From: Aeoliella mucimassa
Lineage (GTDB): Bacteria > Planctomycetota > Planctomycetia > Pirellulales > Lacipirellulaceae
DNA: 64,000 nt
Assembly: GCF_007748035.1 (NCBI RefSeq)
Contig: NZ_CP036278.1
Span: forward strand, 3,534,001 to 3,598,000
Reading direction: 5' to 3'
This document shows positions 2,311 through 41,394 of the stretch, one piece after another (position 1 is the first letter of the stretch; the number at the start of each line of letters is the position of its first letter). Both the position numbers and the translations under genes were made by a program. The notes under the pieces are model-generated. The model was not told where the DNA came from and ran no database searches. It was given only the letters and a program-made list of their open reading frames with translations.

Positions 2311-2859
2311 CGATCATATCGCAGCCCCAGCCAACGGCGTTCACCGCACTGGTGCATGGCTTTGACGGTGAGTGTCCCTGCTGTCGAAGGAAATTCCGGC
2401 AGGCATAGAACTTTGCCGGCGGGGCGCTTCCCAGAATAGCCGCAGAGGTGTTGACGCCGGCCAGCCAACTCTGCGGCTCGGTCAGACCGCTAACTCGCTG
2501 AAACTGGTCCAACCTCAGCCAGATCATGCGTCGTAGAAGTTAAATCGGATCTTATTCCGCAGCCGAACGACAATTACATCGTTGGTGTGCTCAGTTGACA
2601 AACCTCAAGGATCCTGACTGCTTGTGAGATCGGCTCAATGCCAATAGGGGAGAAGTATCCCTGCTGGGACAGTGCTATGAATGTGGCTTGAGCGGTTACG
2701 TCTTTGATAACTCCAGTCCCCTGGAATCTTTTGTCCGTGTGATCAGCTTGAGTACTGCTGCAATCGCACGGTCGACTTTATCGCTTAGGCATCAAGACGA
2801 CATTTTCCAGCTGCCTGACAGAAGAAAAATCCCCCTTTCAACACTCGAACCATGCCCGA
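2311..2859. other. Intergenic stretch, nothing supportable
   Basis: The right part of the pseudogene fades into sequence without a gene. I see no RNA gene, strong hairpin or repeat here. It separates the decayed integrase from the minus-strand surface-protein cluster, so it should hold the 3' end of that transcript. Confidence 0.35.
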
Positions 2860-4188
2860 CTACTTGCTGACAGGATCGAACAACCGCATGTGGCACAATG
2901 CCATCGAAAGATAACAAGTGATGCAGAACAGCAAAGACCAACTCGAGGGTTCGGGCACGGCAGTTGCATCCGTAGATTCACTCCGGAAGGCTGCATGCTG
3001 TGAGGCGGCTTCCAGCAAGCAGCGAAACTTGGCGAAGTCGCCAAGATCATGTAGGCCATTGCCATTGAGATCACCAGCTCGCATCGCTTCGTCAGAAGAG
3101 AGGTGTGACAACTCGGTCCGTTGGTGAGCGACGAAAGGATCCCAATCTAATAAATTCACAACGCCATCACCATTGAAGTCTCCCAGTACATCGATAACGG
3201 GACGATGCTGGTATTCTCGCAGACCATTCTTCTCTAGGTACTTCAACAGTTGAGCAGAGTTGTCCGTTTGAATGATGGTTGCCCCCTTATCAACGAGCCA
3301 TCCCCATGATCCATCGGCATCTCCATCAATTGCGATGGCGTCGTGGTGTCCCCCATCCAAGCTTGCCCAAAGTGAGTTAATCCAGAGGTGCGTATCGAGT
3401 TGCTCGGCAGTGCTTAGTATAGTTTTGCTGAGCATCGATGTTTCATCGTTGCTAAAGATAATCTCCACAGCGGGCGGAGTATGACTGTTTAAGGTGGATA
3501 GCAGTGAGGCCTCATTCCGGTTGCTGACGATCGGCATATAGATGATGGTGTCGTCCGGATATTGCTGTCGAACTGCCGCGACTTGCTCAGGCGTCGCTCC
3601 CCCTTTAAAAATAGCATGGTCCACTGTGCCGGTGTCGCGAAGCACGTTCATCACGCGCGCCATTAGCTCCGCATTCGTGATGTCCACCTTGTCTAGATTA
3701 ACCATCACGTGCCCATTCGCTGCCCGCATCACTTGCTCCAAGGTAGGCACTAGCTCATTGCTAGCCTCGCCATCTGGACCTAATAAACGCAGATTGAATA
3801 CCTGTTCCAACGTTAACGACGAGACATTGCCACTTCCCGTAGTCGTGCGGTTAACACTGGTATCATGCATGGCTACAAGTCCGCCATCTGCGGTCATGCG
3901 GATGTCGATTTCTACAATGTCGACGCCAAGCCGGATTGAGTTTTGAATGGCAGCCAACGAATTTTCAGGATACATCACAGAGCCGTTAGCGATGTAACCG
4001 CCGCGGTGAGCAGCCACCATCACATAACCATCGCCGACTCGATCAAAGATCTCCAGAGTATCAATCTCCACTCCTGATGCAGTGGGTAGACACCCTGCAA
4101 GGCCGAAGGTGGTTAGCAGGAGAACAATACGAGAGACTTGGGGCACAACCATAAGCACCCGACCGTCAAGGACAACTTGTTTCAGCAT
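2860..4188 (-). CDS. Glycerophosphodiester phosphodiesterase lipoprotein with dockerin-like repeats and PEP-CTERM tail
   Basis: The catalytic domain is a GDPD TIM barrel: HRGG near the start, then ENSLAA, VEIDIRMTADG and MHDTSVNRTTTG, which hold the usual metal and acid-base residues. The family hydrolyses glycerophosphodiesters to glycerol-3-phosphate and an alcohol. The N-terminus has a signal segment ending in a lipobox, LAGC. Two calcium-binding dockerin-type loops follow the barrel (GDFNGDGVVNLLDWD and GDLNGNGLHDLGDF), and the C-terminus is a PEP-CTERM sorting signal (VPEPSS, hydrophobic helix, basic end). Having both a lipobox and an exosortase tail is unusual. The frame is open from a GTG at 4233; I place the start at ATG 4188, and ATG 4152 just before the signal is also possible. 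Confidence 0.85.
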   Translation of the reverse strand: MLKQVVLDGRVLMVVPQVSRIVLLLTTFGLAGCLPTASGVEIDTLEIFDRVGDGYVMVAAHRGGYIANGSVMYPENSLAAIQNSIRLGVDIVEIDIRMTADGGLVAMHDTSVNRTTTGSGNVSSLTLEQVFNLRLLGPDGEASNELVPTLEQVMRAANGHVMVNLDKVDITNAELMARVMNVLRDTGTVDHAIFKGGATPEQVAAVRQQYPDDTIIYMPIVSNRNEASLLSTLNSHTPPAVEIIFSNDETSMLSKTILSTAEQLDTHLWINSLWASLDGGHHDAIAIDGDADGSWGWLVDKGATIIQTDNSAQLLKYLEKNGLREYQHRPVIDVLGDFNGDGVVNLLDWDPFVAHQRTELSHLSSDEAMRAGDLNGNGLHDLGDFAKFRCLLEAASQHAAFRSESTDATAVPEPSSWSLLFCITCYLSMALCHMRLFDPVSK

Positions 4189-4261
4189 CGATTCAGATCG
4201 TTGTTTGGGGTTGGAGTTTCGATAAGTGATCACCTTTGAGGCCTGGTAGACTACCCCGAAC

Positions 4262-6061
4262 TCAGTGCGAGATAGCTGGAGCAGGAGGTTCTGGAGGAAT
4301 CAAGCACTCTTTGATTGAATCAAGTGAGCGTGCCAAGACCACGTCCGCATAGAACCATGCGGGGGCGTCCTTTGCATTGGCCAATCGGATACGGTCGAAT
4401 TGAACATCATTGGCGGTGACATCCATACTCGGAGGCGTCACATCAACCCGGTCCAATGGACAATCGAGCCAAGTGCGAATGCGGTCATTGCCTTCTTGAA
4501 ACGAGATGCAAACAACCCAAGTATGCACGCCCTGGTCAATGGTGCCCGACTGGAAAGATTGACTCTGGGTGCTCTTAGAAAACAGGTGACGCTCCCTTTT
4601 CGAACCGATATAGGTAGCAATCACAAACTTATCAGAATCATCGGTGGCACCAAAAATCACCGACTCCTCATTGCGGTCCACATCACCATACATCAACGAA
4701 AGGCCGGCGAACCGCCCAGTCATAGGGCTCAGTGACTGAGTTTTCCAAGTGAGCCACATTTCAGTCGCGTCAGCACCAACAAGTTCGCTAGGATTTAGCA
4801 ATCCAGTTGAAGCAGCACGTCCCCCTTTAGCGATCATCACATCCAGAAAAACCGCCCCCCCTGATCCTATGTAAACTCCCTCGACATTTCGCTTGTAGTT
4901 CATCCTGACATCGCCATCGGCACGAGGTGGATGCATTCCTACGCTCGTGAGATGTCCCCGGACAGGATTACTAAACGTGGCATGGGCAACCAGACCGCCA
5001 ATTCGCCGCCGTCGGTACCACTCAAGCAGTTGAGCAGCTTCTTGAGAACCGTGACGCGCTTCTTCGATCAGTTCGATTTCACTGTCGCGAACGAATTGGC
5101 GGTCGTCCGATATAGTTCGACTAGCGGTATGTGATTTAACCGTGCCGGTGGCAAAGTCACCAACCATTCCCCTGGGCAGTCTGACCTGTTTTTCCCCCTC
5201 ATCGCCGACGACCACCTCACCATTATATACGGCGACCACGAGGCGGCGATCAGGTCCGAGTCCAACACCAAACTCTGTGCCAATATCTCTAATTGTCTCC
5301 TCCGGAGTATGCACGGTGATATCGTGTGCCTGACTTGTCTCAATAGCAACTCTACCGTTCATTAAATTCAAGTGTTCTGTGTCGGCAAAGGAAAAAACGC
5401 ATGGAGCTTCACAGACGACAGTGGTGCCGGAAGGCATTCGCACTCGCACCAAACCTTTCTGCAATTGATAAACCGTCCCGGAAAGAACCCCTGTTCCTTG
5501 GATTGGTGGAGATGAATCCCAGATATCGCCGATACGGGTATCAATCAAGGCAATGGGCGAAACATCAGGATCATCTACCTGTTGATTTTCAATTATGGCC
5601 GTTCCTTCGGACGGCGAATAAGTGCGAGCTTCGATAGGAGCGGGGGGGGCAAGCGGGGTTGTTGCTGTATCATTGCTGGCGAGTTGCGGATCGTCGCTGT
5701 AATAGAGAAGGGATCCAACGACCAACAGTAGTGACGCAGCCACCGCCAATGAGATCCAGGTGATAGTATAGGAAGTCAGTCCGACAGGGCTAGCCTTGGC
5801 CTGCCTTGACTTGACCAACTCCATCCCTTGGAGTGCCTTGTCAAGCAGTTGCTTAGCCTCCTGCTCGGGAAGCACATCGGACATGCCAATTGAGAGTATG
5901 CTTAACGACTCGTCCAGGAGGCTATGAAGATTGGATAGCTCGACAGCTCGGGCTGCATTGCGAACGTCAGCCGCGATCCATTTCCGCACTTCGATTGCTT
6001 CCTCGTCGGAGAGTTGGCGACCATCGAGGCGAGCCGAAAACAGTTCTTCTGGAGAACACAT
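4262..6061 (-). CDS. FecR-domain membrane protein with C-terminal LamG-like domain
   Basis: The protein (599 residues) starts at ATG 6061, four bases after the stop of the sigma-factor gene, so the two are probably translated together; the frame is open further upstream only inside that gene. It has a cytoplasmic anti-sigma-like N-terminus, a membrane helix (WISLAVAASLLLVVGSLLYY), a FecR domain (VTVHTPEETIRDIGTEFGV region, residues roughly 190-310) and a C-terminal concanavalin/LamG-like domain. In planctomycetes such proteins pair with ECF sigma factors and are thought to sense a surface ligand and control the sigma factor. The ligand is unknown. Confidence 0.8.
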   Translation of the reverse strand: MCSPEELFSARLDGRQLSDEEAIEVRKWIAADVRNAARAVELSNLHSLLDESLSILSIGMSDVLPEQEAKQLLDKALQGMELVKSRQAKASPVGLTSYTITWISLAVAASLLLVVGSLLYYSDDPQLASNDTATTPLAPPAPIEARTYSPSEGTAIIENQQVDDPDVSPIALIDTRIGDIWDSSPPIQGTGVLSGTVYQLQKGLVRVRMPSGTTVVCEAPCVFSFADTEHLNLMNGRVAIETSQAHDITVHTPEETIRDIGTEFGVGLGPDRRLVVAVYNGEVVVGDEGEKQVRLPRGMVGDFATGTVKSHTASRTISDDRQFVRDSEIELIEEARHGSQEAAQLLEWYRRRRIGGLVAHATFSNPVRGHLTSVGMHPPRADGDVRMNYKRNVEGVYIGSGGAVFLDVMIAKGGRAASTGLLNPSELVGADATEMWLTWKTQSLSPMTGRFAGLSLMYGDVDRNEESVIFGATDDSDKFVIATYIGSKRERHLFSKSTQSQSFQSGTIDQGVHTWVVCISFQEGNDRIRTWLDCPLDRVDVTPPSMDVTANDVQFDRIRLANAKDAPAWFYADVVLARSLDSIKECLIPPEPPAPAISH

Positions 6062-6065
6062 GGCG

Positions 6066-6635
6066 TCATGCCCCCTGCTGTTCAAAGTAACGGTGAGCGC
6101 ATGCCCGTAGTTTAGCTCGTATACGAGTAAGTCGCTGATAGACCGTGTTAGCATTACAAGAATAATCGGCGGCAATCGATTCGGCTGATCTGTTTTGAGT
6201 ATAGCGAAGGCTGAGAAGATAGCGCGAATGTTGCGAGAGTCGCCTGATGCAGGTCCGTAAAGCTTGTCGCTGAGCTTCCAACTGATCTTGGCTGTGTTCC
6301 ACTCCGGCCTCGAGCAATAACATCGTGTCGGTATCGAAAATCAAATTGCTATTCTGTTTTTTGCTGCGATAGTAGCGGCGTACTCGGTTGCGAGCGATTC
6401 CAAACAACCATTTCTGGAAGCAACGGCTTGGGTCGAAGCTTGAGTAACTCTTGATGGCCTCCAAACTGACTTCCTGAAGAATGTCTTCGGCATCGTTTAC
6501 ATCCTGCAGCAGGGCAATCACATAGGTCCGCAGCCGTGGATAGATGTTGACCCAATGCTTCACGAAGTTTAAATCCCTCGAAGCTGTTGTCTCTTCTGAA
6601 TTACGTGCAAACAATGCTAGTGCGCTCCTATTCAA
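6066..6635 (-). CDS. ECF-type RNA polymerase sigma factor
   Basis: This 189-residue protein has region 2 (NDAEDILQEVSLEAI, then FQKWLFGIARNRVRRYYR) and region 4 (LRTCIRRLSQHSRYLLSLRYTQNRSAESIAADYSCNANTVYQRLTRIRAKLR) of an ECF sigma factor, of the kind common in Rhodopirellula and relatives. It lies directly upstream of the FecR-LamG gene, its likely partner. The frame starts at a TTG; I see no ATG that would keep region 2 intact. It probably directs transcription of nearby surface-protein genes, but no promoter motif could be tested. Confidence 0.88.
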   Translation of the reverse strand: MNRSALALFARNSEETTASRDLNFVKHWVNIYPRLRTYVIALLQDVNDAEDILQEVSLEAIKSYSSFDPSRCFQKWLFGIARNRVRRYYRSKKQNSNLIFDTDTMLLLEAGVEHSQDQLEAQRQALRTCIRRLSQHSRYLLSLRYTQNRSAESIAADYSCNANTVYQRLTRIRAKLRACAHRYFEQQGA

Positions 6636-6818: not shown

Positions 6819-7568
6819 TCAGTCAGTGCTAGCATTTGAATGTTGTTTATAGCGATTGCGGGCGAGCGGGCGACACGCAATAAGCCCCAGACCGATCATC
6901 AAGACAACTAACGCTATCGAGGAGGGCTCGGGCACTACATTGATGGTCACCTCGTCCACTCCTATCCACCCCCAGCCGCCAGAATACGCGTCTATCAGGT
7001 CGATCTGGTAGGTCTCGTCGGGGCTGTCTAAAGCAATGGCTGAAGCTACGACACTCTCATCCCATCCCAGTTCGAGCCAGTTTAACGAGTGATTGGACTG
7101 CCCAGATCCAGAGCGACGATCAAAAAGCAAGTAATGTCCATCGCTTACTCGGCGGAGCGCGATTCCCATAAAATCGCTGCCTGAGGCGGCAGTGGGAAGC
7201 GACGAGTTATCCGTCCAGCTTGGGGTTTCGATTGCCCCAGTACCGCCAAGAGTCCACGCAGAGACGCTAAATGGCATATCGGTGTCGATCACTGGAGAAC
7301 TCACCACTTTGATAGCCGTATCGCCAGCATCGCGAGTTCCATATTCAGCTTCCAAGAGCATGTAGTCGCTCGAATAAGCGACAGTACGGCCACTGTTAGT
7401 GTCCGCCACCGTATCCCAAGCCACATAGTCTTCGCCCAAAGTTCCCACAGGTACATTGTTAGTCCACCCCTGCAGGGTACCATCGTCGAAGTTAAAGCTG
7501 ATTGTCGCGGCGTCGACGGAAATCGACGTGACCGCGATGAGTACTCCTAGGAACATCCGAACTATCAT
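6819..7568 (-). CDS. PEP-CTERM exosortase substrate, FDDGTLQGWTN family
   Basis: A signal peptide (MFLGVLIAVTSISVDA) leads into a beta-rich domain beginning FNFDDGTLQGWTNN and including DYVAWDT and ALRRVSDGHYLLFDRRSGSGQS. The end is a PEP-CTERM tail: VVPEPSS, a hydrophobic helix and the basic RPLARNRYK. ATG 7568 follows AGAGAGGTGA at a good distance, so I prefer it to the longer frame from 7610. The domain is clearly paralogous to the first module of the 1320-residue protein at 9281-13243. An exosortase should cut it and attach or release it at the cell surface; ligand and role are unknown. Confidence 0.8.
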   Translation of the reverse strand: MIVRMFLGVLIAVTSISVDAATISFNFDDGTLQGWTNNVPVGTLGEDYVAWDTVADTNSGRTVAYSSDYMLLEAEYGTRDAGDTAIKVVSSPVIDTDMPFSVSAWTLGGTGAIETPSWTDNSSLPTAASGSDFMGIALRRVSDGHYLLFDRRSGSGQSNHSLNWLELGWDESVVASAIALDSPDETYQIDLIDAYSGGWGWIGVDEVTINVVPEPSSIALVVLMIGLGLIACRPLARNRYKQHSNASTD

Positions 7569-7621
7569 TAGGTCACCTCTCTGAAGAAAAAAGAGTACAT
7601 CGTCTAACACAGATTGACCAC

Positions 7622-8635
7622 CTACCGTGGTGTAGGGGGTTTGTAGAGTTCATCGCCGTCGTCGTTGCGTCCGCCTAGCTTTCGAAATACATCACCGTCT
7701 ATTTCGTATTCGAGGGCTTGGACAGAACCATCGCAGTTAACAACATAGAAGGCTGCAGAGTGAGCACTGCCAAAGTGCCACTCGAGCGTTAGGCCGGCAC
7801 GGTCTCGCTGGGGCAACAACGACTCTATATCCGAACCATCGGCTGTGAAACCGCAAATGTCGCGGTCGTATCCAACGAATGGTGTTTGATCGTCGTTTCT
7901 GACCGCCCCCGTGTCATAGTGATCGGCGTCGATGTACTTCTCACCGACAAAGATGGTCTTACTCGTTCCATCGGTGATCTGGGCGAGTCGGACTTCGCTA
8001 CGGTAATAGCTTACACCGTTGAACTTGTAGTTGAAGTTCTTGGTATGAGTGTCGATGCCCGACTCGGAACTGGGACCTTCGGTGTAGGTGTAGGCGTTGA
8101 TGGAACCAGCATTGGCACGATAGTCGGTTCGTGACACCATGCAATCGCCTTCAGTGCAGGAGCGAATGTTGTAGGCGAGATAGCTGTTTCGGTCGACGGG
8201 GTATTGGCGGTAGGTGCGGCGAGAGGGACAGTTGTAGATTGTGATCGGCGTTTCGACCATTTCCTTGAGCGCCAGGTCTTTGGCATTCCCCGACAACGAC
8301 ATTCCAAGGTCATGCAGCGCCGTCTGTTCAATATAAGGAAGTATGGTGAATCCCCAGCCCCCCGGTTGCTTCTCACCGTAGCCAGAATTCGGGTCACCGT
8401 GCCAGCGCCACCCCCACCCAGAAGTGGGCAGGTGACGATGGGCAGATTCGTGATTGAGCACGCCCAAGCCTATTTGCTTAAGGTTGTTCTGGCACTGCGA
8501 TCGGCGGGCCGCTTCGCGTGCCGCCTGAACTGCTGGCAGAAGCAGGGCAACCAGAATACCAATAATTGCAATTACGACCAACAGCTCAACCAGCGTAAAT
8601 GCTTTTTTAAGGGACATAGCTTGTGTATTCACCAT
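7622..8635 (-). CDS. DUF1559 prepilin-like protein
   Basis: The N-terminus is a type IV prepilin-like methylation segment, [20 protein letters not shown], followed by [23 protein letters not shown], which defines the DUF1559 family that is greatly expanded in planctomycetes. The rest contains the usual family landmarks ([26 protein letters not shown], and a C-terminal [19 protein letters not shown]). Prepilin peptidase should cleave before the F of FTLVEL. The role is probably a surface pseudopilin, but the exact function is unknown. Starts at TTG 8641, ATG 8635 or ATG 8617 are possible; 8635 has an AAGGA upstream. Confidence 0.88.
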
Positions 8636-8664
8636 TTGCAATCGGGATTCCTTGTAGGCGGGGG

Positions 8665-9291
8665 TTATCGTGTGGAGAGGCTAAACTCGTAGGTGCAGCT
8701 GTCTTCTGCTCTTTCGGAGTCGGGAAATACTTCCAGACCAAGCTGTGTGGACTGGTTATATTTGGCAGGTAAATCAATCTCATCCGACAGCACCGAGACG
8801 GTATATTGACCTACCAGTACACAGGGGATGTCCGATCCACTTATTTTTGGGTAGCAGACCCCCTCATCGTTGGTGATTGCGGTCGCCGCTGTGAGGGTGT
8901 GCTCCAAGGCGACACCGGGGGTTAATGTCACCTTGACTCGCGGCAGCGGGCGCCCATTACAAGTAAATTTGAGTCTGACTTGTGCCAAACCTAGATTGCT
9001 TGTTAGGTATTGTTCAAATCTTGCAGAGAGTTCTTCCCTATCAAGTTGTCCGTCGCCGTTAGAATCCGCCAAAGGTACAACTACGGCGACGCTGGGCGAC
9101 GCTTTTAGATCGGCTTCGGACAATACTTCGTCACCATCCCGATCCAGCCGCTCGAATATCTCGGTTGCCATTTCATGAGGCCTCCAGGTGGGCTTTGAAC
9201 TCCCAGTCGGGCGCTCACTGCACCCAACGGAGCCAAGTAGCGAGGAAACCACCAACAACTTGATAACTATTGTGGAGTAATTAAATGTCAT
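8665..9291 (-). CDS. EF-hand lipoprotein with C-terminal carboxypeptidase-regulatory-like domain
   Basis: The start ATG 9291 overlaps the last 11 bases of the upstream polyprotein gene, suggesting coupled translation. A lipobox (LGSVGC) ends the signal peptide. Two EF-hand loops follow: [13 protein letters not shown] and [13 protein letters not shown]. The last ~100 residues ([14 protein letters not shown] and onward) resemble the small beta-sandwich seen in many planctomycete lipoproteins. It is expected to bind calcium at the cell envelope. Its place in this cluster, which is full of calcium-binding dockerin repeats, fits a surface-assembly role, which is inference. Confidence 0.72.
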
Positions 9292-12200
9292 GGCTCTCAC
9301 AGTACTGAGATAGCGAGTTTCGACGCCCTTTTACGCTGCGACTCAGACAGATCGAACCAGCCAGCAGCGTCAGAATTGCAATACCAGTCGGTTCAGGAAC
9401 TGAGGTACTATCGCCCAGCAAACCGAAGTCGAAACCTGCGGCACCCGAATCTAGTAGAGCCTGATGAAGAATGAACACGTCATCCAAGTAAACGCGGCCA
9501 TCGAGATTCAGATCTCCGTGAGTGAGAGTGGTGATATCACCAACCACAATACCATCCACCACGTTTACACTGCGATATCCGGCAACAAGTGCAGCCACAT
9601 CTTGCTGATCGACGACGGAGTCTTGGTTGACGTCGCCTGCAATTCCGGTCAGCCCTGAAATTGAAAGTTCGACTGCAAATGCGTTGTCGGAGAGTAAGTC
9701 GAACTGGCCGTAGTCCCGTTGGGAGTTTATCGACTCGCCTAAAACGAACATCTGCAGATCGTCCAGTACCCCAACGAACTGATTCTCCTGGCCGATGACG
9801 GTATCGAAACCGTCCGCGGTGCTGGCTCCAACTGTCAACACAGTGGGGTCGTCACTATCATATCCGCCAGGCCGGGCTGCTACGGCCACCCCGTTCACAT
9901 ACATTCGGCTGCCGGAGTCGCTGCCGCTGGAACCGTAGGGCCGGACTACCATCACGTGGCTCCAGTTGTCGAAATCAACGCTTACGCCAGAGTCGACATC
10001 CGTACCATTGTAACGCATAACCCAGGTGCCCTCATCACTGATGCGGATGCCATGCTGGTTGCTGTCAAGTACAACGTCTTGCCAAGAATTTGTATTGGAC
10101 GAATCGGGATAGATCCATAGCTGCATGCCTCGGTTCGTGATACCAGAGTAGTCGAGAGGACCTCCCATTGAAGAATCGCTCAGTGAATTCGATGGAGCAT
10201 TCAGCGAACTGGTATAAAGAAAGTCGCCAGTACCATCAAAGCGAATGCCGAGGCTGTCACTTGTAGCAGCGGGGCGTACCTGCGATAGACCTGAAGATGT
10301 CACGGAGACGTCGATGTAGCTCGGATTACCTTGCACCTTAAGATCGAGGTAGGCGCCGCTAGGGCCTATAGAATCCAGAGTCGATCCGGAAGTGACGTTG
10401 CCAATGCCACTACCCGCTGTGATGTTAACGCTAGCTTTCTCCTGGCCATCGTCTCCAAATTTGTAGTGCCGATCGAGCTCACTCGCCGAAACGGCCCGTG
10501 CTGCAACCAGCAATCCAACAAGGATCAACACTGCTAGCCGGGGAGCCTTAATGCCCCGTTTGCGGTTAATGACGAGAACCGCTGCCCCAGCTACAAGTAG
10601 AATGCCCCAGGCAGCGGGCTCGGGAACAGCCTGATTTGCCACACTACCCTGCACAGGACTGTTATTCAACTTACCAAAGTTGCCTTTCCACACAGTATAG
10701 TCACCGGCGTCGATGACGTCGTTTCCATTTCCATCGGCTGCCAGGACTGTGGTGGATCCAAGGTTGTCTCGCCACACGGTGTAGTCGGCCAGGTTAACTA
10801 TGCCATCCCCGTTGTAATCACCCAAGAGCTTCGGTTGTTCGGGCAGCACTCCGTCGTAGAAAACGCTAGCCGCGAATACCAAACCGTCGGCAGTGCTAAA
10901 GGAAAACTGCAAGTCATGGACGTCAACCGTCGTATCGTACGCATTGCCAATGCCAATGGACTGGCCTGCCGCGAGCACATACTCGGCCCCAGCGCCAGTG
11001 CCATCGCCCAAGTACCACTCAGTCAATTGCCCCGCTCCGCTTGTTGGGTTCTCTTCCCATCCGTTGCCATCGCCACCCCCAGTCGGAAGCGCAGGATTGT
11101 CGGCGAAGCTAAACCACGCATCGGCATCGAGACTCTCCGCTGAGCTGAGGATTTCATAGCCCGTAATAGCTACAGCAGCCGATGAGTTGTTAAACAATGT
11201 GATGCTTCCCGTCGTGGTGTCGACATTAATGCCAAACACCTTTGTATCGTCGAGCACGAAGTTAGAGTTATTCACCTCCACCGAATCCATAGTGATCCAG
11301 CCCCAGCCACCAACGAAAGTATCCACCAGGTCAATAACATAGGTCTCGTTAGGTGAGTCTCCACTGGTAGCTGCTGCTATCGCAGCCGCATCCCAGTTCA
11401 CTCCCTGCCAGCCGCTATTGTTGCTTTGGCCATTTGAAACTCGACTGCCGGTGAGCAGGTAGGCGTTATCACTCGTCCGTCGCAGAGCAACACCCATGAA
11501 GCCCGATTCAGTGGCACTTGACTGGAGGCTGCCAAGATTGGCCGGTATGCCATCATCACCACCGACGCCCCCCAGTAACTGCAGCGAGATCGATGAACTG
11601 CCGCTGATTCCAAACTGAGGCGATGTTACTACCAACGTGTCGTGAGCGTTGTCGCGGGCGTCGAGAAAGCTCCCACCGTCCGTAACAGATACCACCATAT
11701 GGTAGGGCGAGGCTGCCACAGTACGTCCACCGTTGGTGTCGGCACTGGTATCCCAGGCAGCGAAATTAGCAGCCCCGGAACCAGTACTCGATGACATCGT
11801 CATCGTCCACCCCTGCAGACTGCCATCGTCAAAGCCAAAGCGCACATCATCTGCATAGGAACGGCCCGCCCGGCAAACAAATACCAACGTCAAGCAGTAA
11901 AATAATCGCCGAGCCTTCCGAGAAAACGCCGCCGAAACAGCACAACCGCAACAGACGAGCAGCCAGGCTGCAGGCTCCGGGACCGACTTACTCGAGGCTG
12001 CCAAAGCTTCAAATGCACCAGCACCGTTTGCTTGATCGTAAATCTGACGGAACTGGGCGAAGTCTCCCAAATCATGCACTCCATTAAAATTTAAGTCTGC
12101 TGCCTGATAGGCCTGCACCAGACTGAGTCCGTCGAGGCTGGAGAACTGCTGCTGCTTAAAAGCGGACCAATCAGCGCTGCTTATATTGCCATCGCCAGTC

Positions 12201-13243
12201 AGGTCTCCAAACTCTAGCGCGACGCCATCGATATACTCCACAATGACTGGCAAAATGGTTCCGTCTGCCAACAGAATGTCGGCTTCGACATCTTCGTATG
12301 GCGAGGGAGTCCACGCTGCGCCAAGAACGACAGGCTGACCAGCAGCCAAAGGCGCTCCTACGCCACCATTCGGGTCGAATTCCGCCTCTGCCAGGTTGAT
12401 CGGGGTGCCAGAGGTAATTGTCCAAGTGTTGTCAACGTCTACCGATCCATTCCCCGCAGGCTGTGCGTCATAATTGCCAGCAATTGGAGTCCAGCCTGAA
12501 GTGTTGAAAGCACCGGCTGGCGAATACAAGTCGTAGGCCAGCATCTGTGTGGGCTCGGTGCCATTGACCAGCCGAACTGTCCCGTCAAGGCGACTAATCT
12601 GCAACGTGGGACCGGCAAGCTCGGTGATGGTTGCTTCATCCATGGCAATCCAGCCCCACCCTCCTGAATAAGTATCGATTAAATCAATCTGGTACGTCTC
12701 GTTGGGACTATCGCTGGCTGTGGCATCCCGAACGGTGCTGGCGTCCCATCCAAGCTCGAGCCAGTTCACCGATCGATCGGATTGCCCTGAAGCTGATCTA
12801 TTGTCAAAAAGCAAATACTCGCCATCACTTACGCGACGCAAGGCAATTCCCATGAAGTCTTCGCCCGCTACAGTCGGTAGCGAATCATAATTGCTCCAAG
12901 TAGGGGTATCCACCGCTCCCGTGCCGCCTAGCGTCCAGACAGAAACTCCAAAAGAGTTTTGAAGGTCGATTATTGGAGAACTCAGTACTTTCACATTAAT
13001 ATCGCTGGCATCACGATTCCCATAATCGCCTTCAAGGACAAGATAATTGCCTGAGTATGCAACTGTGCGACCACCATTGGTATCGAGAGCAGAGTTCCAA
13101 GTTGCGAAATCTTCGCCAGAAGCTCCGTCCGGGAGGTTATTTGTCCACCCCTGTAGTGTGCCGTCGTCAAAATTGAATACAGTTTGCGCACGAGCCGCAC
13201 CAGCAAACACACTCAGAATCAATATCAAACAGACTCTTAACAC
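9281..13243 (-). CDS. Three exosortase substrates joined in one frame (PEP-CTERM polyprotein)
   Basis: One uninterrupted frame of 1320 residues begins at a GTG preceded by AGGAG. Module 1 (about 1-447) has a signal peptide ending ARA, an FDDGTLQGWTNN domain, dockerin-like loops (GDLTGDGNISSADWS) and a PEP-CTERM tail (VPEPAAW, helix, RKARR). Module 2 (about 448-897) starts with a signal-like helix (LFYCLTLVFVCRAGRSYA), repeats the FDDGSLQGW domain, has GDYNGDGIVNLADYTVW loops and a second tail (VPEPAAW, helix, NRKRG). Module 3 (about 898-1320) starts LAVLILVGLLVAARAVSA, has a LamG-like domain, GDVNQDSVVDQQD loops and a third tail (VPEPTG, helix, KGRR). No ATG lies at either junction. The product could be cut by signal peptidase and exosortase into three surface proteins. 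Confidence 0.75.
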   Translation of the reverse strand: MLRVCLILILSVFAGAARAQTVFNFDDGTLQGWTNNLPDGASGEDFATWNSALDTNGGRTVAYSGNYLVLEGDYGNRDASDINVKVLSSPIIDLQNSFGVSVWTLGGTGAVDTPTWSNYDSLPTVAGEDFMGIALRRVSDGEYLLFDNRSASGQSDRSVNWLELGWDASTVRDATASDSPNETYQIDLIDTYSGGWGWIAMDEATITELAGPTLQISRLDGTVRLVNGTEPTQMLAYDLYSPAGAFNTSGWTPIAGNYDAQPAGNGSVDVDNTWTITSGTPINLAEAEFDPNGGVGAPLAAGQPVVLGAAWTPSPYEDVEADILLADGTILPVIVEYIDGVALEFGDLTGDGNISSADWSAFKQQQFSSLDGLSLVQAYQAADLNFNGVHDLGDFAQFRQIYDQANGAGAFEALAASSKSVPEPAAWLLVCCGCAVSAAFSRKARRLFYCLTLVFVCRAGRSYADDVRFGFDDGSLQGWTMTMSSSTGSGAANFAAWDTSADTNGGRTVAASPYHMVVSVTDGGSFLDARDNAHDTLVVTSPQFGISGSSSISLQLLGGVGGDDGIPANLGSLQSSATESGFMGVALRRTSDNAYLLTGSRVSNGQSNNSGWQGVNWDAAAIAAATSGDSPNETYVIDLVDTFVGGWGWITMDSVEVNNSNFVLDDTKVFGINVDTTTGSITLFNNSSAAVAITGYEILSSAESLDADAWFSFADNPALPTGGGDGNGWEENPTSGAGQLTEWYLGDGTGAGAEYVLAAGQSIGIGNAYDTTVDVHDLQFSFSTADGLVFAASVFYDGVLPEQPKLLGDYNGDGIVNLADYTVWRDNLGSTTVLAADGNGNDVIDAGDYTVWKGNFGKLNNSPVQGSVANQAVPEPAAWGILLVAGAAVLVINRKRGIKAPRLAVLILVGLLVAARAVSASELDRHYKFGDDGQEKASVNITAGSGIGNVTSGSTLDSIGPSGAYLDLKVQGNPSYIDVSVTSSGLSQVRPAATSDSLGIRFDGTGDFLYTSSLNAPSNSLSDSSMGGPLDYSGITNRGMQLWIYPDSSNTNSWQDVVLDSNQHGIRISDEGTWVMRYNGTDVDSGVSVDFDNWSHVMVVRPYGSSGSDSGSRMYVNGVAVAARPGGYDSDDPTVLTVGASTADGFDTVIGQENQFVGVLDDLQMFVLGESINSQRDYGQFDLLSDNAFAVELSISGLTGIAGDVNQDSVVDQQDVAALVAGYRSVNVVDGIVVGDITTLTHGDLNLDGRVYLDDVFILHQALLDSGAAGFDFGLLGDSTSVPEPTGIAILTLLAGSICLSRSVKGRRNSLSQYCESHDI

Positions 13244-15358: not shown

Positions 15359-15471
15359 CAGGGAACCGCCCCCTACCAACGCAATTCTCCAGCCACTCCA
15401 AATTGCTCCTATCCACCTCACCTCCTAGCACACTGAGCACATCGATGACTACATCGCCAACAAACAACCTA

Positions 15472-16631
15472 GTACGTCTTTCCTGAAATCCATTCCGCTG
15501 CTATATGCTGCGGAATGAAAAAGCACATTGTTTGCCTGGACCACCAGGCCCGTGGAGGTTTGGAGCAGCTAGCACGCTCAGGCGCCCGCGCGGCGCAAGT
15601 GGTGCGTCGCTGCCAGATATTATTGAAATCGGACTCGGGATGCACCGACGAAGAGATCGCCGAGCATGTGGGCTGCACGACGCGCAACGTCCGAGCCGTC
15701 CGAAAGCGGTTCTGCGAAGAGGGCGTCCAGCGGGCGGTGTACGATGCGCCTCGCTCGGGCCGCCCCCCAGAGTTCACCAAGCGGCAGCAGCAACAGGTAA
15801 TCGCCCTGGCGTGCAGCGAGCCGCCCGAGGGACGGGCTCGCTGGACGCTGGAATTGTTGTGCGAGCACGCGGTGAAGGAAGGCTTCGTCGATTCGCTCAG
15901 CGTGACGGAGGTCTCGCTGTGGCTCAAGGAACACGACCTGAAGCCGTGGCGAAAAAAACTTGGTGCGTGCCCAAGCTGAACGACGAGTTCTGTGAGCGGA
16001 TGGAGGACGTCCTCGAGCAGTACGAGAAGCCGCTCGACCCGAACGAGCCGGTCGTCTGCCTCGACGAGCAGCCCTATCAGAGGGTCGACGACGCGCGGCC
16101 GCCCGAGCCCGCGGCACCCGGCAAGATCGCGAAGCAGGACTACGAGTACCGCCGCTGCGGAACCTGCAGCGTGTTCGTGGCGGTCGAGCCGAAGGCGGGC
16201 AAGCGATTCGTTCAGGCCAAGCGTCACCGCAAGCGAGCCGACTTCGCCCGGTTCGTCCGCGACCTCTTGAAGCGCTATCCCGACGCAGAGCGGGTTCATC
16301 TGGTGATGGACAACCTCAACACGCACAACGAGAAGTCGTTGATCGAAACCTTTGGCGAGGAGGCGGCTCGGCCAATGCTGGAGCGGATTGTGTGGCATTT
16401 TACCCCCAAGCATGCCAGTTGGCTCAACATGGCCGAGATCGAAATCTCGGCCATACAGCGACAATGCCTGGGACGTCGGTTGGCTTCGCTCGACAAGGTT
16501 CAAAGCGAACTCTCCCACTGTTCACGCGACCGCAATCGGAAGAAAATCAAAATCAATTGGACCTTCCATCGAAAAGACGCCAAACGCGTCTTCCCTGAAC
16601 TCTATAGGAAATGACTTCCGGGACGACGTAC
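15472..16631 (+). mobile_element. IS630-family insertion sequence, copy 1
   Basis: A 1160-bp element flanked by a TA duplication (15470-15471 and 16632-16633), as expected for IS630. The ends are imperfect inverted repeats starting GTACGTC at left and ending GACGTAC at right. It carries one transposase split over two frames. A second copy at 39941-41100 looks identical along its whole length, so at least one transposition is recent. Confidence 0.93.
15515..16614 (+). CDS. IS630 transposase, two frames joined by probable -1 frameshift
   Basis: The first frame (15515-15979) encodes the DNA-binding part: a helix-turn-helix (CTDEEIAEHVGCTTRNVRAV) and linker typical of IS630 orfA. The second frame, which is -1 relative to it, carries the DDE nuclease: D in VVCLDEQPY, D in HLVMDNLNTHN, and E in SWLNMAEIEISAIQRQCLGRR. 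The frames meet at a run of seven A after CG (about 15951), a classic slippery site, so the active enzyme is probably a frameshift fusion ending at 16614. It cuts at the element ends and joins them to TA targets. Confidence 0.9.
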
Positions 16632-18625
16632 TAGACAACCTCCCCACCGACTTGAAAGAGACGCCCCACTGGATTTTGTGGCGTGACGAGTCGGGCCGTA
16701 AAATCCCCTATTGCGTCGGTGGCGGCAAAGCGAGCACCACCAACCCGGCCGACTGGTCGACCTATTCCGACGCAATTGCCTACTACAAGCAACACGGGGC
16801 GAGCTTTAGCGGTTTGGGGTCCGTGTTCACGGCCGACGACCCGTTTTGCGGGGTTGACCTCGATAACTGCGTCGACCCGGCAACGGGCGAGGTCTCCCTC
16901 TGGGCCGCGGACATTATCAAAGAGTTCGGCAGCTATGCCGAAATATCGCCGAGCGGTACCGGGGTGAAGATATTCTGCGAGGCGAAACTCCCCGGCGATC
17001 GCGGTTGCCGCAAAGCTTACGCGGACGGGGTCGTCGAAATGTACGACCAAGGTCGTTACTTCGCCGTCACTGGCACGCTGGTCGACCCCGAGTTCGTCGG
17101 GTGCGTGCCGGCGCAAGCGGCGGTAGACAAGTGGTATGGCTTGCTATCGAGCGGGGCGAACAACGACAAGGGGTCGACGGCTGAGCTCGAAGTCGAGGAC
17201 GTGTCGGAGTATCTGCTAGAGGCTTATCGCAACAAGCTGGCCGAGCTCCCCGACGCCATCGACGGCCAGCACGGGAGCTACGACACCATGCACGCCCTGT
17301 GCGAGATTCGCCGTATGGGACTGAACGCCGAACAATCGTGGGAGCTGATCGACTGGTACAACGACAACAAATGCCTCGGCCCCTGGGAGCAATCGGAGCT
17401 AGAGCGGAAATGGGAGGGGGCCAAAACGATGCAACCGGTTTGCACAGCCGCCGAGGCGTTCGACGACCTGCCCCCGCTAGAGGATGAGGAAGGGACCGCC
17501 ACGCCAGCGAAGCCGGCGGCCAAGTGGTCGCTTGAAGCTCTCCCGCAAACCGAGTTCATGGAACAGAGCTGGCCCGTTACCTGGATTGTCGACGGGGTAT
17601 TGTGCGCGGGCGATTGCCATATCATCGGCGGGCCCTCGAAGACGCTAAAGACAAATATCTCGCTCGACCTTTGCATTGCTATCGCGACGGGGACCCCCTT
17701 CCTCAACGAGTTCGAGGTGCTCAAGACGGGCCCGGTGATTTTCTGCTCGGGCGAATCGGGTCGTTCGCGGCTGCAAGAAAACTCTCGCTCCATCTGCAAC
17801 GCCTATGGTCTCGACTATAGCAGCGATTTTATCATCGCCCCCAAGGTGCCTCGGGGTGATCGCCCGGAGCAAATGGCCGCCCTCGCCGAGCTAATAGCTA
17901 AATACGGGGCCATCTATTGCTTGCTTGACCCGACCTATCTATCGGTCGGGGCGGGCTTAGCGGGCGATGCTGCGAAAGACTTGAACCGTACGGGCGCGGC
18001 ACTGGCCACTTATAACGCCCTTGGTTATTACCGGGGCTGCACGATGGCTCTTTGCCATCATTTTACGAAGGGGGCGGGGCGGTCGAAGTCGGCTTCCGTT
18101 CACTTGTCGAATCTTAGTGGCGCGGGCTATGTGGAATGGGCCCGACAATGGGTGATCCTCAATCGGCCGGGTGTTTATCGTAATGATGGTCAGCACGAGC
18201 TGCTGATGGGGGTCGGGGGTTCGGCGGGGCATAGTGGTACCTATCGAGTGAGCATTAACGAGGGCTGGATTACCGACGAACGGCGTTCGGGCGGCGACTG
18301 GCAAGTTTCGGTAGTCGACGAGAACGATTCGGTGTTTGACGACGTGTGCGACGCGGACGGCCTTACACCCGACATGCGGACACTAATAAACATCCTGGGG
18401 GATCCCGAACTAACTAAAGGAGTTGTCCCAACGCAGAATTTTCTCAAAAACACATCGAGACTCAATGGCAGTCGGACAACAGATGCATTAACCAAGTTGA
18501 AGACTGCTGGCATAATTGAGGTGACTCTTATCGATGTTAAGGGGAGACCGCGAGAAAGTTTCCAATTAGCCTCGAATCAACTAGAGTCCGTAAACTCTCG
18601 AACAGTCGACTGCATCAAGGCGTAG

Positions 18626-21438: not shown

Positions 21439-23421
21439 TCACGCGTCAGCTTCCTCCAATTCAGCTTCGGCAAGTACTACTTCTCTCACGTACTTACGGA
21501 AAGAATTAACTGACGAGAAGAAGCGATAGCCTCCCTGGCTCGCAGCCTCCTCTACGTCTTCTCCTTCGCCTATCAACAGACAGACTGGCTGACTAAGCCC
21601 TTCTTGCAAGCCATCAGGCCAGGCAAGGTCTAGCACTGCCATGGGCTTTCCAGTCTCTTCATCGATAAGCTCGTACGCGAGTTCACCAATTGGCAACCCG
21701 CGTTTCTGAACCCAAGCATTGAAGCGAACAAGCCGTTCTTCTTCCTCATCATCATCAATTCCGCCAGGAACGTAGGCGGCTGCACGCTCGACGAAGTTAG
21801 CATCCTCTGGTTCTATGACAGTAGGCATGCTGCCAGCGGACAGCCGTTCTAGAAAGTCATTGGCCGCCTTCGCTAAAAGTTTCCTTCGCTCTTTCAAGAA
21901 ATCCAAGTAGTGCTCAACTTTCCACAGCTCAGGGTCCATGGGGATCCAGTGCGTAGCAATAGCTCCGGGAGTGCGTTCTTCGTAGGCTGGAATGTACAGC
22001 CCCGGGTCTTTTTTAGAGACTTCAAGATTGGTCTCTTGTGTTAGGAAGGTGAAGTTTGCGATGGCGTTAACTTGCCGCTTCTTGTATCCATGCGCATACA
22101 GCAGTGCTTTCGGGAAGATATGGTGGACTTCTAGTCTAGAGAGGTGACCAAGTAGGTGATTAGTCAACTCGTCACCTGTTCCCCAATCACGAGCGTGAAG
22201 TACACGGGTCATCATATACAGCATCGGGTAGAACCGGTTGCCCTTGCTAGACCCACTGAAGTCACTCTCGTGTAAAGCCAGATTAGCTCGCTCTTGCCGA
22301 AGATTCTCAATCAGCCGCTTCAAAGCTCCGGCGGAGTCATTTGTACTTGCATCTTCTATCGCTTCCAGGTCAGTATTTAATTTGCTTTCTGTTGAACCAG
22401 AGTACCTTCCCCAAAGAATCGTGTGGACGTACCAGTAAAGCAATTGGTCCCGCTCCTGCTGGTTTGGAAGCTTGCCACCTCGTTGAACTAGATAACGACT
22501 CATAAGCGGAATCGCATAACGACTCCCCAGCACACGGTCATGGTCCAAGCCCAATCTACTAGCAATGAGGTTGAGCAATCGGTCGATTACCTTTTCAGTC
22601 GTATCCAGCCCATCTCGGACTTCTTTAGCGTCCACATTTCTCATTGCTGTGAACAGAGCCTCGCCGGTCACCACGGCATTGATATTTCGCAGCAGCCAGT
22701 CGAGTTTGAATTGGTAGCCTGCCTTTTGCCACTTTGTGAGCCGCTGTTTCATCTCGTCGCGAGCATCGGGCCATTCAGCACAAATCTTTGCCAGAGTCAG
22801 GTCACCCTTGGAGAGTTTGGTTCCACCACTATTCACGCGGTTGAAGATGTCGACCACTACGTCCACCGTTTTGTCTTCACCGGTGACTTCTTCCATGTGC
22901 AAGTCAATCGCCTTGATGTTCTCAATAGCGTTGACTCGGTTAAGGTAAGTCGAGATATCTGCTTGAAACTCGGGGACTTGCAGCAATTTCTGCATCGTTT
23001 TACCCGCACCATCACACATCACCTCAGTAACACTCAACCAGCGAGGGTCGTCTTTCATCTTGGTTGGAGAGTAAAACTCGAAGGTCTCATCTTCCAGATT
23101 GAAATAGAGTCCCGTAAACGCCTGTACGTTGCCATCGAAAAACTTAGGCGGCTGGCCGCGGACAATCCCATATAGCGACGTAATTCGCTGCTGCCCGTCA
23201 AGAAGCAACTTTACCGTTCCCGGAGTCAACTCTTGGTCCCCACGTGAAGTCGCCGACTCAGCTTTCGTTACCCATACCAGCAGGCTCCCAACGGGATGCT
23301 TGCGGTAAAGCGAGTACATCAGCCCGCGGACCTGGTCGCGGTTCCACACATAGCCTCGCTGGAACTCTGGGAGTGCCATGGAGCCCAAGTCGATTTGATC
23401 AAGAATGGTTTCGATTTTCAT
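21439..23421 (-). CDS. DUF262 protein with HNH-like C-terminal region (GmrSD-like)
   Basis: The N-terminal DUF262 domain shows PEFQRGYVWNRDQVRGLMYSLYR and LLLDGQQRITSLYG; the DGQQR loop is the ParB/sulfiredoxin-fold nucleotide site of this family. The C-terminal half has LEVHHIFPKALL followed by NFTFLTQETN, the HNH-like pattern of DUF1524 relatives. GmrSD-type enzymes are NTP-dependent nucleases that attack modified phage DNA, with DUF262 as the regulatory part. Here both parts are in one 660-residue chain. It is the last gene of the defence operon, 69 bases after its neighbour. A role as an additional effector is inferred. Confidence 0.8.
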   Translation of the reverse strand: MKIETILDQIDLGSMALPEFQRGYVWNRDQVRGLMYSLYRKHPVGSLLVWVTKAESATSRGDQELTPGTVKLLLDGQQRITSLYGIVRGQPPKFFDGNVQAFTGLYFNLEDETFEFYSPTKMKDDPRWLSVTEVMCDGAGKTMQKLLQVPEFQADISTYLNRVNAIENIKAIDLHMEEVTGEDKTVDVVVDIFNRVNSGGTKLSKGDLTLAKICAEWPDARDEMKQRLTKWQKAGYQFKLDWLLRNINAVVTGEALFTAMRNVDAKEVRDGLDTTEKVIDRLLNLIASRLGLDHDRVLGSRYAIPLMSRYLVQRGGKLPNQQERDQLLYWYVHTILWGRYSGSTESKLNTDLEAIEDASTNDSAGALKRLIENLRQERANLALHESDFSGSSKGNRFYPMLYMMTRVLHARDWGTGDELTNHLLGHLSRLEVHHIFPKALLYAHGYKKRQVNAIANFTFLTQETNLEVSKKDPGLYIPAYEERTPGAIATHWIPMDPELWKVEHYLDFLKERRKLLAKAANDFLERLSAGSMPTVIEPEDANFVERAAAYVPGGIDDDEEEERLVRFNAWVQKRGLPIGELAYELIDEETGKPMAVLDLAWPDGLQEGLSQPVCLLIGEGEDVEEAASQGGYRFFSSVNSFRKYVREVVLAEAELEEADA

Positions 23422-23490
23422 CGCTCAACGTCCTCAGTAGGTCCTTGTCGCAAGGTGATTGCGATAAAGTTGTGCCGCTTGTAAGGTTGT

Positions 23491-24028
23491 TCATTCGTGC
23501 TGTTTGCATCTCAGCTGTCCTGGAACCGCGAGATTGAAGCATCCGGCTACTTCGCAGTCAAGAAGTGGCTGAAGCTTCCCTACTGCAATCAAGCTGCTAA
23601 GTCGGGTTCCATCGTCTGCGTACGCGTGCGTCTCTGAATCTGCTTTAGCAATGACCAAATGGTCCATCGCAATGGTGGGCTGTGGGTTCCCCGCAGTGGT
23701 TCCTGCCCCAGGTATTAAAATCAGCGGCGTTTGTGTGATATGGCAGTACGCATTGTCGTCGGTGCTGAAGTACCAGGCCCCATGCTTGGCAGCGTAGTCA
23801 AAGAAATCACTCTTCCTGGCAACAACGTCTGGCGTTACCACATACCTGAATTTCGACCGAGCCCACGGGAACTGCCCTAGGTCGTGCTTTGGGCGGATCA
23901 TATCTGGCTCCGCCTGCCACGAAATCGAAAGGCAGTGCGGACATGTCGGTGCCCTGCTGGCGTCTCAGACTCTCTTGCATTGCTCGCAGGTAATCATGCT
24001 CATTGGGCTTTCCTTGTGGTAGAGCCAA
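23491..24028 (-). pseudogene. Small operon protein, probably one gene broken by a frameshift
   Basis: Two overlapping frames: 24028-23807 (MALPQGKPNEHDYLRAMQES and onward) and 23901-23491 (MIRPKHDLGQFPWARSKFRY and onward). Reading the second frame upstream of its ATG gives a natural continuation (SISWQAEPD), so a shift near 23935 probably split one protein of about 180 residues. The C-terminus has a likely zinc site (CEVAGC..., CKQHE). The alternative is two truly overlapping genes, as a GGAG stands before the second ATG. Function unknown; it is conserved in place between the ATPase and DUF262 genes only as far as this window shows. Confidence 0.5.
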
Positions 24029-24302
24029 TCACCTCCCAACCAAAGCATTCCTCGATGTCACGAATAACCTTTCCCGCCGATTGCCCTAATCTGGCATCAA
24101 CAGTAATTCCGTCACCCTCTGGAAATGTACTTGCCCAATAACCACGTTGCATAAAGCTTTCCAAGGACTCGGATTGGACAAGGCATGGATGGTCGCTTGG
24201 CAGCTCGCCATGCTTTATCGGCCACTTGCCCTCCCACATGACATTGGACATTTGTTTTCCGCCGCCAGATAGCGGTGACTCGTGAATATACCGCACCTTC
24301 AT
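24000..24302 (-). CDS. Small hypothetical protein of the defence operon
   Basis: A 100-residue protein (MKVRYIHESPLSGGGKQM and onward) starts 30 bases after the ATPase gene and overlaps the next gene by 29 bases, so it is part of the same transcript. The sequence is mixed alpha/beta with no membrane segment and no motif I recognise. Being wedged between the ATPase and the DUF262 gene suggests a partner or regulator role; this is inference from position only. Confidence 0.55.
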   Translation of the reverse strand: MKVRYIHESPLSGGGKQMSNVMWEGKWPIKHGELPSDHPCLVQSESLESFMQRGYWASTFPEGDGITVDARLGQSAGKVIRDIEECFGWEVIGSTTRKAQ

Positions 24303-24332
24303 CGTTCAAGTCTCCTTCAATGACAACACAGC

Positions 24333-30798: not shown

Positions 30799-30851
30799 TG
30801 TTTTCTTTCGCTACTGGATTCTTTTCCTACGGGGGCGAGTCTTGCCTTGGG

Positions 30852-41100: not shown

Positions 41101-41394
41101 TAGTGCTCATTGACTGGCCAGCAGCTGGCCCGGTCGACCGGAACACATCACAAACACCTGGCCGAGCCACTCGTTTTCACTTCCATTTTTCCGCTCCCTA
41201 CGCCCGTCATGCCCCTTCACCAGATTTCGCCTTGTGAAGGTGCTGATCGAGAGCGAAAAATTCGACACTGAGAGGTATACTAACCAATCGACGTGCACCC
41301 CTGACTTCTTCTATTATTTTCCAGGCAGGCGCGAAGTGATGGGAGTGACTCCTATGCGTTACATTATGGAGTCCAAGATGAATGGAGGCTCAAA

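Follow-up and report, generated by a model that had tools for sequence, protein, structure and literature searches.

Can one bacterial gene encode several complete exosortase substrates in a row, and if it does, are they separated after export? This question is raised by a 64,000-nucleotide stretch of the Aeoliella mucimassa Pan181 genome (hereafter the window; positions 3534001-3598000 of the single 6,608,792-base contig G000:C1). On its minus strand lies an open reading frame (ORF) of 1320 residues made of three modules, each of which ends in a PEP-CTERM sorting tail. The genome belongs to the family Lacipirellulaceae, order Pirellulales, and its chromosome is described as closed, with 6,608,792 bases, in the available text of PMC13315336. 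That the ORF encodes one continuous chain is almost certain. We judge it quite probable, from the signals carried by the chain and by its relatives, that it represents three exosortase substrates joined in one secretory polyprotein, which signal peptidase I and exosortase would cut.

The first-pass annotation of the window had described three modules in a single frame, each with a signal helix, a dockerin-like part and a PEP-CTERM tail with a basic end, as well as two joints devoid of stop codons and ATGs. The former description was borne out by ORF reading and by Pfam and NCBIfam scans, and the latter by direct reading of both joints. The ORF begins at a GTG codon with AGGAG 8 nt upstream, and its residues 1-19 form a signal-like stretch, by composition and motif only. 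Its PEP motifs are found at residues 422, 874 and 1283. In all three tails (3/3), the motif is followed by a transmembrane helix and then by a basic cluster. Joint 1 reads PEPAAWLLVCCGCAVSAAFS-RKARR-LFYCLTLVFVCRAGRSYA/DDV and joint 2 PEPAAWGILLVAGAAVLVIN-RKRGIKAPR-LAVLILVGLLVAARAVSA/SEL, with predicted signal peptidase sites marked by a slash. The start-like codons of the joints are TTG and GTG triplets within the second helices, and no Shine-Dalgarno (SD)-like match was found there.

The Pfam scan of the ORF revealed three Dockerin_1 stretches (E 1.5e-10), the best of them in module 2 (residues 807-851), along with PEP-CTERM, lectin-type and other, weak matches. It returned no cytochrome family and no protease family above its cut-off. 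A similarity of module 2 residues 680-716 to the Lamin Tail Domain is sub-threshold. The NCBIfam PEP-CTERM sorting domain TIGR02595 scored 25.9 bits against a cut-off of 16, and the Pfam PEP-CTERM model 17.7 bits, slightly under its cut-off of 20.7. Module 1 has homologues in the head of module 2 (39% identity) and in a separate PEP-CTERM protein of 263 aa (61% identity). An AlphaFold model of module 1 made from three window sequences had a mean pLDDT of 47, which is too poor for fold comparison. Only the third tail occupies the extreme C-terminus. As tails 1 and 2 are internal, we describe modules 1 and 2 as working like PEP-CTERM substrates, not as typical members of that group.

We propose that each joint is composite, with an exosortase cut on one side and a signal peptidase I cut on the other. 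A single ribosome would synthesize the whole chain. The N-terminal signal peptide would begin export, and module 1 would emerge outside the inner membrane until the first PEP-CTERM helix stopped transfer, so that the short basic loop behind it would remain cytoplasmic. The second helix, as an internal signal peptide, would restart export for module 2, and the same steps would be repeated for module 3. Signal peptidase I would cut after the small-x-Ala that closes each second helix and exosortase at each PEP. The outcome would be three separate surface proteins in equal amounts, the helical hairpins being left for degradation. We infer both cuts, their order, the equal yield and the final location of the products from sequence. 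Given this topology, separate mature modules would result from ordinary Sec export followed by the action of signal peptidase I and exosortase, and no new enzyme would be needed. The chain is open, the paired signals are conserved, the charge pattern is positive-inside, the modules occur both fused and separate, and the genome has genes for both enzymes.

The first-pass annotation had suggested looking for the same fusion in relatives. For this we used an automatic joint rule based on a PEP start, a second helix and minimum lengths, with duplicates removed; the rule misses joints with VPEHS or VPEGE. In an earlier rule-based set of 43 ORFs, two were false positives and were dropped, and one joint that the earlier rule had missed (L046) was added by hand. 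With the 1320-aa ORF as a query, the A. mucimassa genome itself yielded many stop-free matches across a joint. The fetched stretches of this genome (G000) contain at least 26 polyprotein ORFs with 40 joints: two modules are present in 14 of them, three in 11 and five in one. Across the window and all stretches fetched before the wider-order sampling, the rule identified 82 ORFs and 136 joints, the window ORF included. These numbers rose to 104 ORFs and 190 joints when twenty wider-order stretches were added. The larger set comes from Lacipirellulaceae, eight other families of Pirellulales and two genomes outside the order, and the ORFs contain between two and about ten modules.

A profile of modules 2 and 3 built from 22 rows (A1) matched 25 of the 43 genomes of the family (E <= 1e-30). 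Among the matches listed, it crosses the joint in a stop-free frame in 11 of 14 family genera, and the fusion is thus found again in relatives. At E <= 1e-40, with the best three candidates per genome considered, A1 matched 24 of the 396 genomes of the order, all within Lacipirellulaceae, so the three-module set of the window ORF looks like a family trait. The joint architecture itself is wider than Lacipirellulaceae. It was traced using a joint profile, A2, trained on joints with Ala-x-Ala (AxA) and short linkers. A2 under-counts other joints (window joint 1 scored 30.7 bits), and its matches served to locate loci, not to test AxA. It matched 24 of the 43 family genomes at E <= 1e-10 and 66 of the 396 order genomes at E <= 1e-9, of which 28 belong to the family and 38 do not. 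Outside the family, certain matches stop within the tail or hold a stop codon, and are not joints.

All twenty of the best-looking regions outside the family, a non-random choice from 11 genomes of eight other families, harbour at least one joint. They include complete ORFs of 2298 aa with eight PEP-CTERM sites (L269) and of 2427 aa with seven PEP sites and FGE-sulfatase-type domains (L274), as well as a 2531-aa ORF with ten PEP sites that is cut by the contig end (L268). In a sample of 294 genomes from across the phylum, at least two genomes that do not belong to the order, G472 and G554, have full joints; three of their four regions were confirmed by the rule, and the fourth is cut by a contig end. 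The number of candidates scored per genome in these wide searches was up to 32, 3, 21, 145 or 15, depending on the search, and absences are provisional. It is probable that Pirellulales generally make sets of surface proteins as cleavable secretory polyproteins, with composite joints and from two to about ten substrates per chain.

The signals at the joints resemble those at the ends of proteins. Using a tail profile built from 132 single-gene tails, the median score was 29.4 bits for 136 internal tails and 29.2 bits for 79 terminal tails of polyproteins (Mann-Whitney p 0.87). The distance from the last basic residue to the cleavage site is 21 aa at the joints (interquartile range 19-23, n=133) versus 20 at N-termini (18-22, n=116), and AxA is present at 69% of joints versus 55% of N-terminal signal peptides. 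The second helix contains AxA in 108 of 136 joints, compared with 73.6 +- 4.7 in 2000 shuffles (maximum 89). An earlier joint set gave 54 of 70 versus 35.0 +- 3.4 shuffled. As a control, the PEP helix showed no AxA excess (50/136 versus 47.7 shuffled). AxA followed by Gln, Glu or Asp was found in 44 of 136 joints versus 11.4 shuffled. The small-x-Ala motif is present in 133 of 136 joints versus 121.7 +- 3.0 shuffled; this comparison carries less weight because the pattern is loose and the shuffles are already near the observed count. The loop between the helices has a mean charge of +4.2, compared with -0.3 and -1.8 for its flanks, and its charge is above 0 in every one of the 184 joints for which a cleavage site could be assigned. 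The stretch between the signals shares 11-41% identity in seven of eight ungapped joint pairs.

The tail, AxA and charge counts use joints picked by a PEP and a second helix. For a PEP-independent test, joints were found from the head of module 3 alone. Of 52 internal module-3 heads, 51 have a PEP within 110 aa upstream, 50 a small-x-Ala directly before the head and 37 an AxA. The corresponding numbers are 29, 29 and 23 for the 30 heads outside the A1 profile rows (22 excluded). Furthermore, 14 other ORFs have the module-3 head near their N-terminus, directly preceded by AxA in 10 cases. Thus, the internal helix occupies the place of a signal peptide. Lastly, 12 pairs of tandem duplicates (protein identity >=0.75) had ratios of non-synonymous to synonymous substitution rates (dN/dS) of 0.12-0.55 over codons 17-44, and one further pair is identical. 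This mildly favours conservation of the joints, the 12 pairs being overlapping, not independent, and biased by their choice on protein identity.

As is expected of a polyprotein, several modules are present in one continuous frame and the same proteins exist as separate genes in A. mucimassa and its relatives. At L142 of A. mucimassa, three adjacent genes (687, 502 and 447 aa) follow the module order of the window ORF, as judged by query range, and the second and third are each preceded by a separate SD and begin with an ATG. Other unfused or partly fused sets are found at L062 (511 and 904 aa), L118 (924 and 479), L129 (1012 and 474), L119 (555 and 939), L132 (540 and 936) and L134 (477, 465 and 398), and 1+2 and 2+1 forms occur at loci other than L142. 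Some joints harbour what look like former gene starts inside the open frame, AGGAGG in L048 and AAGGAGG in L110 and L253, each 7 nt before an in-frame ATG. The modules also comprise near-complete enzyme domains: alpha-L-fucosidase (L044), GDSL esterase (L242), sulfatase (L250, outside the order) and the FGE type. The LamG-type module, usually third, is first in L035 and L063 and second in L111, by inspection; the module order is thus not fixed.

The simplest history is that the polyproteins arose by repeated stop loss between neighbouring PEP-CTERM genes, since three joints keep an SD and an ATG in the open frame and unfused module sets exist. Such joints would form easily, and cells would tolerate them, since the basic residues that close a PEP-CTERM tail can directly provide the basic start of the following signal peptide; both signals would be retained after fusion. 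The first-pass annotation had opposed a polyprotein to a series of lost stops. The polyprotein architecture stood, recurring in the 82 ORFs and in the wider set of 104, and the opposition did not: lost stops look like the origin and a conserved polyprotein like the outcome.

Two further loci of A. mucimassa bear on how such chains form. At L034 (G000:C1:3720000-3733000), the first two joints of a five-module ORF are 89% identical in protein, which suggests that the chain grew when an entire module was duplicated in frame. At L248 (G000:C1:982000-990000), two minus-strand PEP-CTERM ORFs, 3870-4988 followed by 2730-3866, share a reading frame and are separated by a single stop, directly after which no obvious ATG is seen. 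The pair may represent two genes before fusion, a stop that is read through, or a start at a codon other than ATG.

The main rival to cleavage is an uncut, multi-anchored surface protein, in which each PEP helix and the helix after it form a hairpin, the hairpins anchor several ectodomains in the inner membrane, and the signals merely remain from the fusion of genes. Sequence by itself does not prove cutting, the charge pattern of the loop suits a hairpin equally well, and the PEP motif is degenerate at two joints (VPEGE at joint 2 of L108 and VPEHS at joint 1 of L107). Leftover signals should decay, yet the PEP persists at all but one of the module-3 joints, within and outside the profile rows, and internal tails score equal to terminal ones. 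AxA is enriched in the second helix and not in the PEP helix, though the stretch between them has diverged. Anchoring by a hairpin requires no PEP and no AxA, and enzyme domains with separate functions are linked through such joints; we therefore find an uncut chain unlikely. A half-processed chain, in which signal peptidase I cuts each internal helix and exosortase acts on the last tail only, would leave the internal modules hairpin-anchored or freed by another protease. For the first of these cuts, FbcH of Bradyrhizobium offers a bacterial precedent. Half-processing also agrees with the extreme C-terminal position described for PEP-CTERM sites in the available text of PMC1569441. However, a PEP ignored by exosortase would not need to persist, and internal PEP tails are conserved as well as terminal ones, which makes half-processing unlikely as well.

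The ORF might also represent three separately translated genes that lost their stops, with weak internal starts and a read-through by-product. Indeed, 10 of 136 joints, including L048, L110 and L253, have a start codon preceded by an SD-like match that is 5 nt or longer, and a looser 4-nt criterion gives 28 of 70. Strict matches account for 0.39% of joint-zone codons versus 0.18% of the background (Fisher p 0.03), and some modules may therefore also start internally. Yet a Met between the basic cluster and the second helix is lacking in 140 of 190 joints, and the window joints have neither an ATG nor an SD-like match. An SD-like start (4 nt) was found within the first 90 codons of 39 of 41 polyprotein 5' ends, a longer span than that of the joint scan, and a ribosome arriving from upstream continues in any case where no stop halts it. 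Internal starts are thus rejected as a general explanation, both for the window joints and for the majority of the others, the minority above being left, and separate translation is very improbable. The first-pass annotation had anticipated two objections, stop codons at the joints and internal starts giving three proteins. Neither applies to the window ORF: the frame is open in the closed genome and in many relatives, and no SD-like start was found at its joints. A sequencing or assembly error that hides stops or frame shifts has a negligible probability: we found no support for it, and it is excluded in practice, since the same architecture recurs at 26 sites of a closed chromosome and across numerous independent assemblies.

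Beside the degenerate PEP motifs and the internal starts, other observations weigh against the cleavable polyprotein that we favour. The second helix of window joint 1 ends in SYA, not AxA. In the PEP-independent test, L108 has VPEGE, and L105 and L050 are without small-x-Ala before the module-3 head. The codon-position differences in the eight ungapped joint pairs (124/113/142) make a weak test, as most pairs are saturated, and do not count as support. The remaining tandem-duplicate pairs, also a weak test, have dN/dS up to 1.37, some of them being misregistered by indels. The literature searched gave no documentation of exosortase action on an internal tail. According to the available text of PMC1569441, tails that extend dramatically further are very few and 'may represent non-functional examples'.

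Known PEP-CTERM/exosortase (EpsH, XrtA-like) substrates share with the window ORF a Sec signal peptide (predicted in the window ORF), the PEP, helix and basic cluster, exosortases in the genome and dockerin- or lectin-like domains. They differ in that two of the three window tails are internal and run straight into the next predicted signal peptide. In the available text of Haft et al. 2006 (PMC1569441), the tail is placed at the extreme C-terminus, 87% having fewer than ten further residues. Our results suggest that longer-extended tails may be functional in Pirellulales, contrary to the proposal made there. The available text of a cyanobacterial study reports no detected PEP-CTERM-domain peptide with or without exosortase (PMC12188702).

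Other systems share parts of this arrangement. A polyprotein gene strategy is known from viruses and, to our knowledge, hardly seen in bacteria. In Bradyrhizobium, signal peptidase separates the cytochrome b/c1 precursor FbcH into two proteins by cutting at an internal signal peptide. The window ORF, which has no Pfam match to a cytochrome family, resembles FbcH as one bacterial chain with an internal signal peptide, for which cutting is here predicted. It differs in that FbcH has one joint and one protease, whereas the chains described here are surface proteins with one to about nine joints and two sorting signals at each. Viral polyproteins likewise hold several proteins per frame, and some of their cuts are made by host signal peptidase, but the window chain has no protease family above cut-off and the host's sorting enzymes would cut it. 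Repeat-containing bacterial surface proteins also carry tandem ectodomain modules in a long ORF, but their repeats have no transmembrane sorting signals between modules. The signals and enzymes are known, in an arrangement for which we found no earlier description; titles and abstract openings of the open-licence literature searched yielded no description of PEP-CTERM polyproteins.

Features of the three-module ORF and of the genes that follow it, in window coordinates (a slash marks a predicted cleavage site)
Feature	Coordinates	Strand	Remarks
Putative polyprotein ORF of three modules (signal helix, ectodomain and PEP-CTERM tail in each)	9281..13243	-	1320 aa
N-terminal signal peptide, MLRVCLILILSVFAGAARA/Q	13187..13243	-	by inspection; GTG start
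Module 1 ectodomain: head, second domain aligning with module 2, dockerin-like repeat	11981..13186	-	
Joint 1: PEP, helix, RKARR, second helix, SYA/DDV	11852..11980	-	residues 422-464
Module 2 ectodomain: head with homology to that of module 1, sub-threshold Lamin Tail Domain similarity, Dockerin_1	10625..11851	-	
Joint 2: PEP, helix, RKRGIKAPR, second helix, ARA/V or VSA/S	10484..10624	-	residues 874-920
Module 3 ectodomain: Laminin_G_3-type domain (E 4.8e-11) and dockerin-like repeat	9398..10483	-	
Module 3 terminal PEP-CTERM tail and stop	9281..9397	-	
EF-hand protein, lipoprotein-like N-terminus (by inspection)	8665..9300	-	overlaps polyprotein end by 20 nt
DUF1559 pseudopilin-like gene	7622..8641	-	PF07596
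Single-module PEP-CTERM protein, unfused paralogue of module 1 head (61% identity)	6819..7610	-	third gene downstream, 263 aa
ECF sigma factor-like gene	6066..6635	-	by inspection of sequence
FecR-domain protein	4262..6175	-	PF04773

On the minus strand, the three-module ORF is followed in order by the EF-hand, DUF1559, single PEP-CTERM, ECF-sigma-like and FecR genes and by a glycerophosphodiesterase-dockerin gene. Homologues of the ECF-sigma-like gene recur next to other polyproteins. A DUF1559 match is found within 4 kb (by lower coordinate) of 20 of the 26 A. mucimassa polyproteins, compared with a mean of 3.5 and a maximum of 11 for random placement (2000 trials). The other listed PEP-CTERM tails of this genome, outside polyproteins, have one nearby in 38 of 96 cases (4-kb footprint; Fisher p 0.0008). 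The polyproteins likely have a putative function in the surface or polysaccharide layer. As for the processing enzymes, exosortase (PF09721) is encoded at three loci of the A. mucimassa genome, all over the TIGR02602 cut-off, and matches to Peptidase_S26 (signal peptidase I) are found in two adjacent ORFs. At L139:229-5454 (G000:C1:1480000-1490000), a 1742-aa ORF combines an exosortase with a PrsT-like TPR region (TIGR02917), a sorting enzyme fused to its usual partner.

Elsewhere, the window harbours mobile and defence-like elements. An insertion sequence encoding a DDE_3 transposase is present in two identical 1166-bp copies, in the same orientation, at 15469-16634 and 39938-41103. The imperfect inverted ends of the copies begin with CTAGTACGTC, and the copies flank a region with defence-like genes. 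This minus-strand island (21439-38875) codes for a 969-aa helicase whose best match is PADLOC DpdE (E 2.8e-247), a 1510-aa DrmMI-like methyltransferase, a 1723-aa DruE-like SNF2/helicase protein and a 660-aa HEC-05-like protein. A 1067-aa Cas9-like protein (HNH_4, Cas9_a, RuvC_III) is encoded at 47375-50578, also on the minus strand.

If the chains are cut as proposed, bacteria would have secretory polyproteins whose joints are processed by the host's own enzymes, and with them a means to fix the ratio of surface proteins and to deliver them together. Exosortase research would gain substrates whose uncut intermediates show directly by size. For Pirellulales, the assumption of one substrate per gene that underlies protein-family models and gene callers would need to be handled with care.

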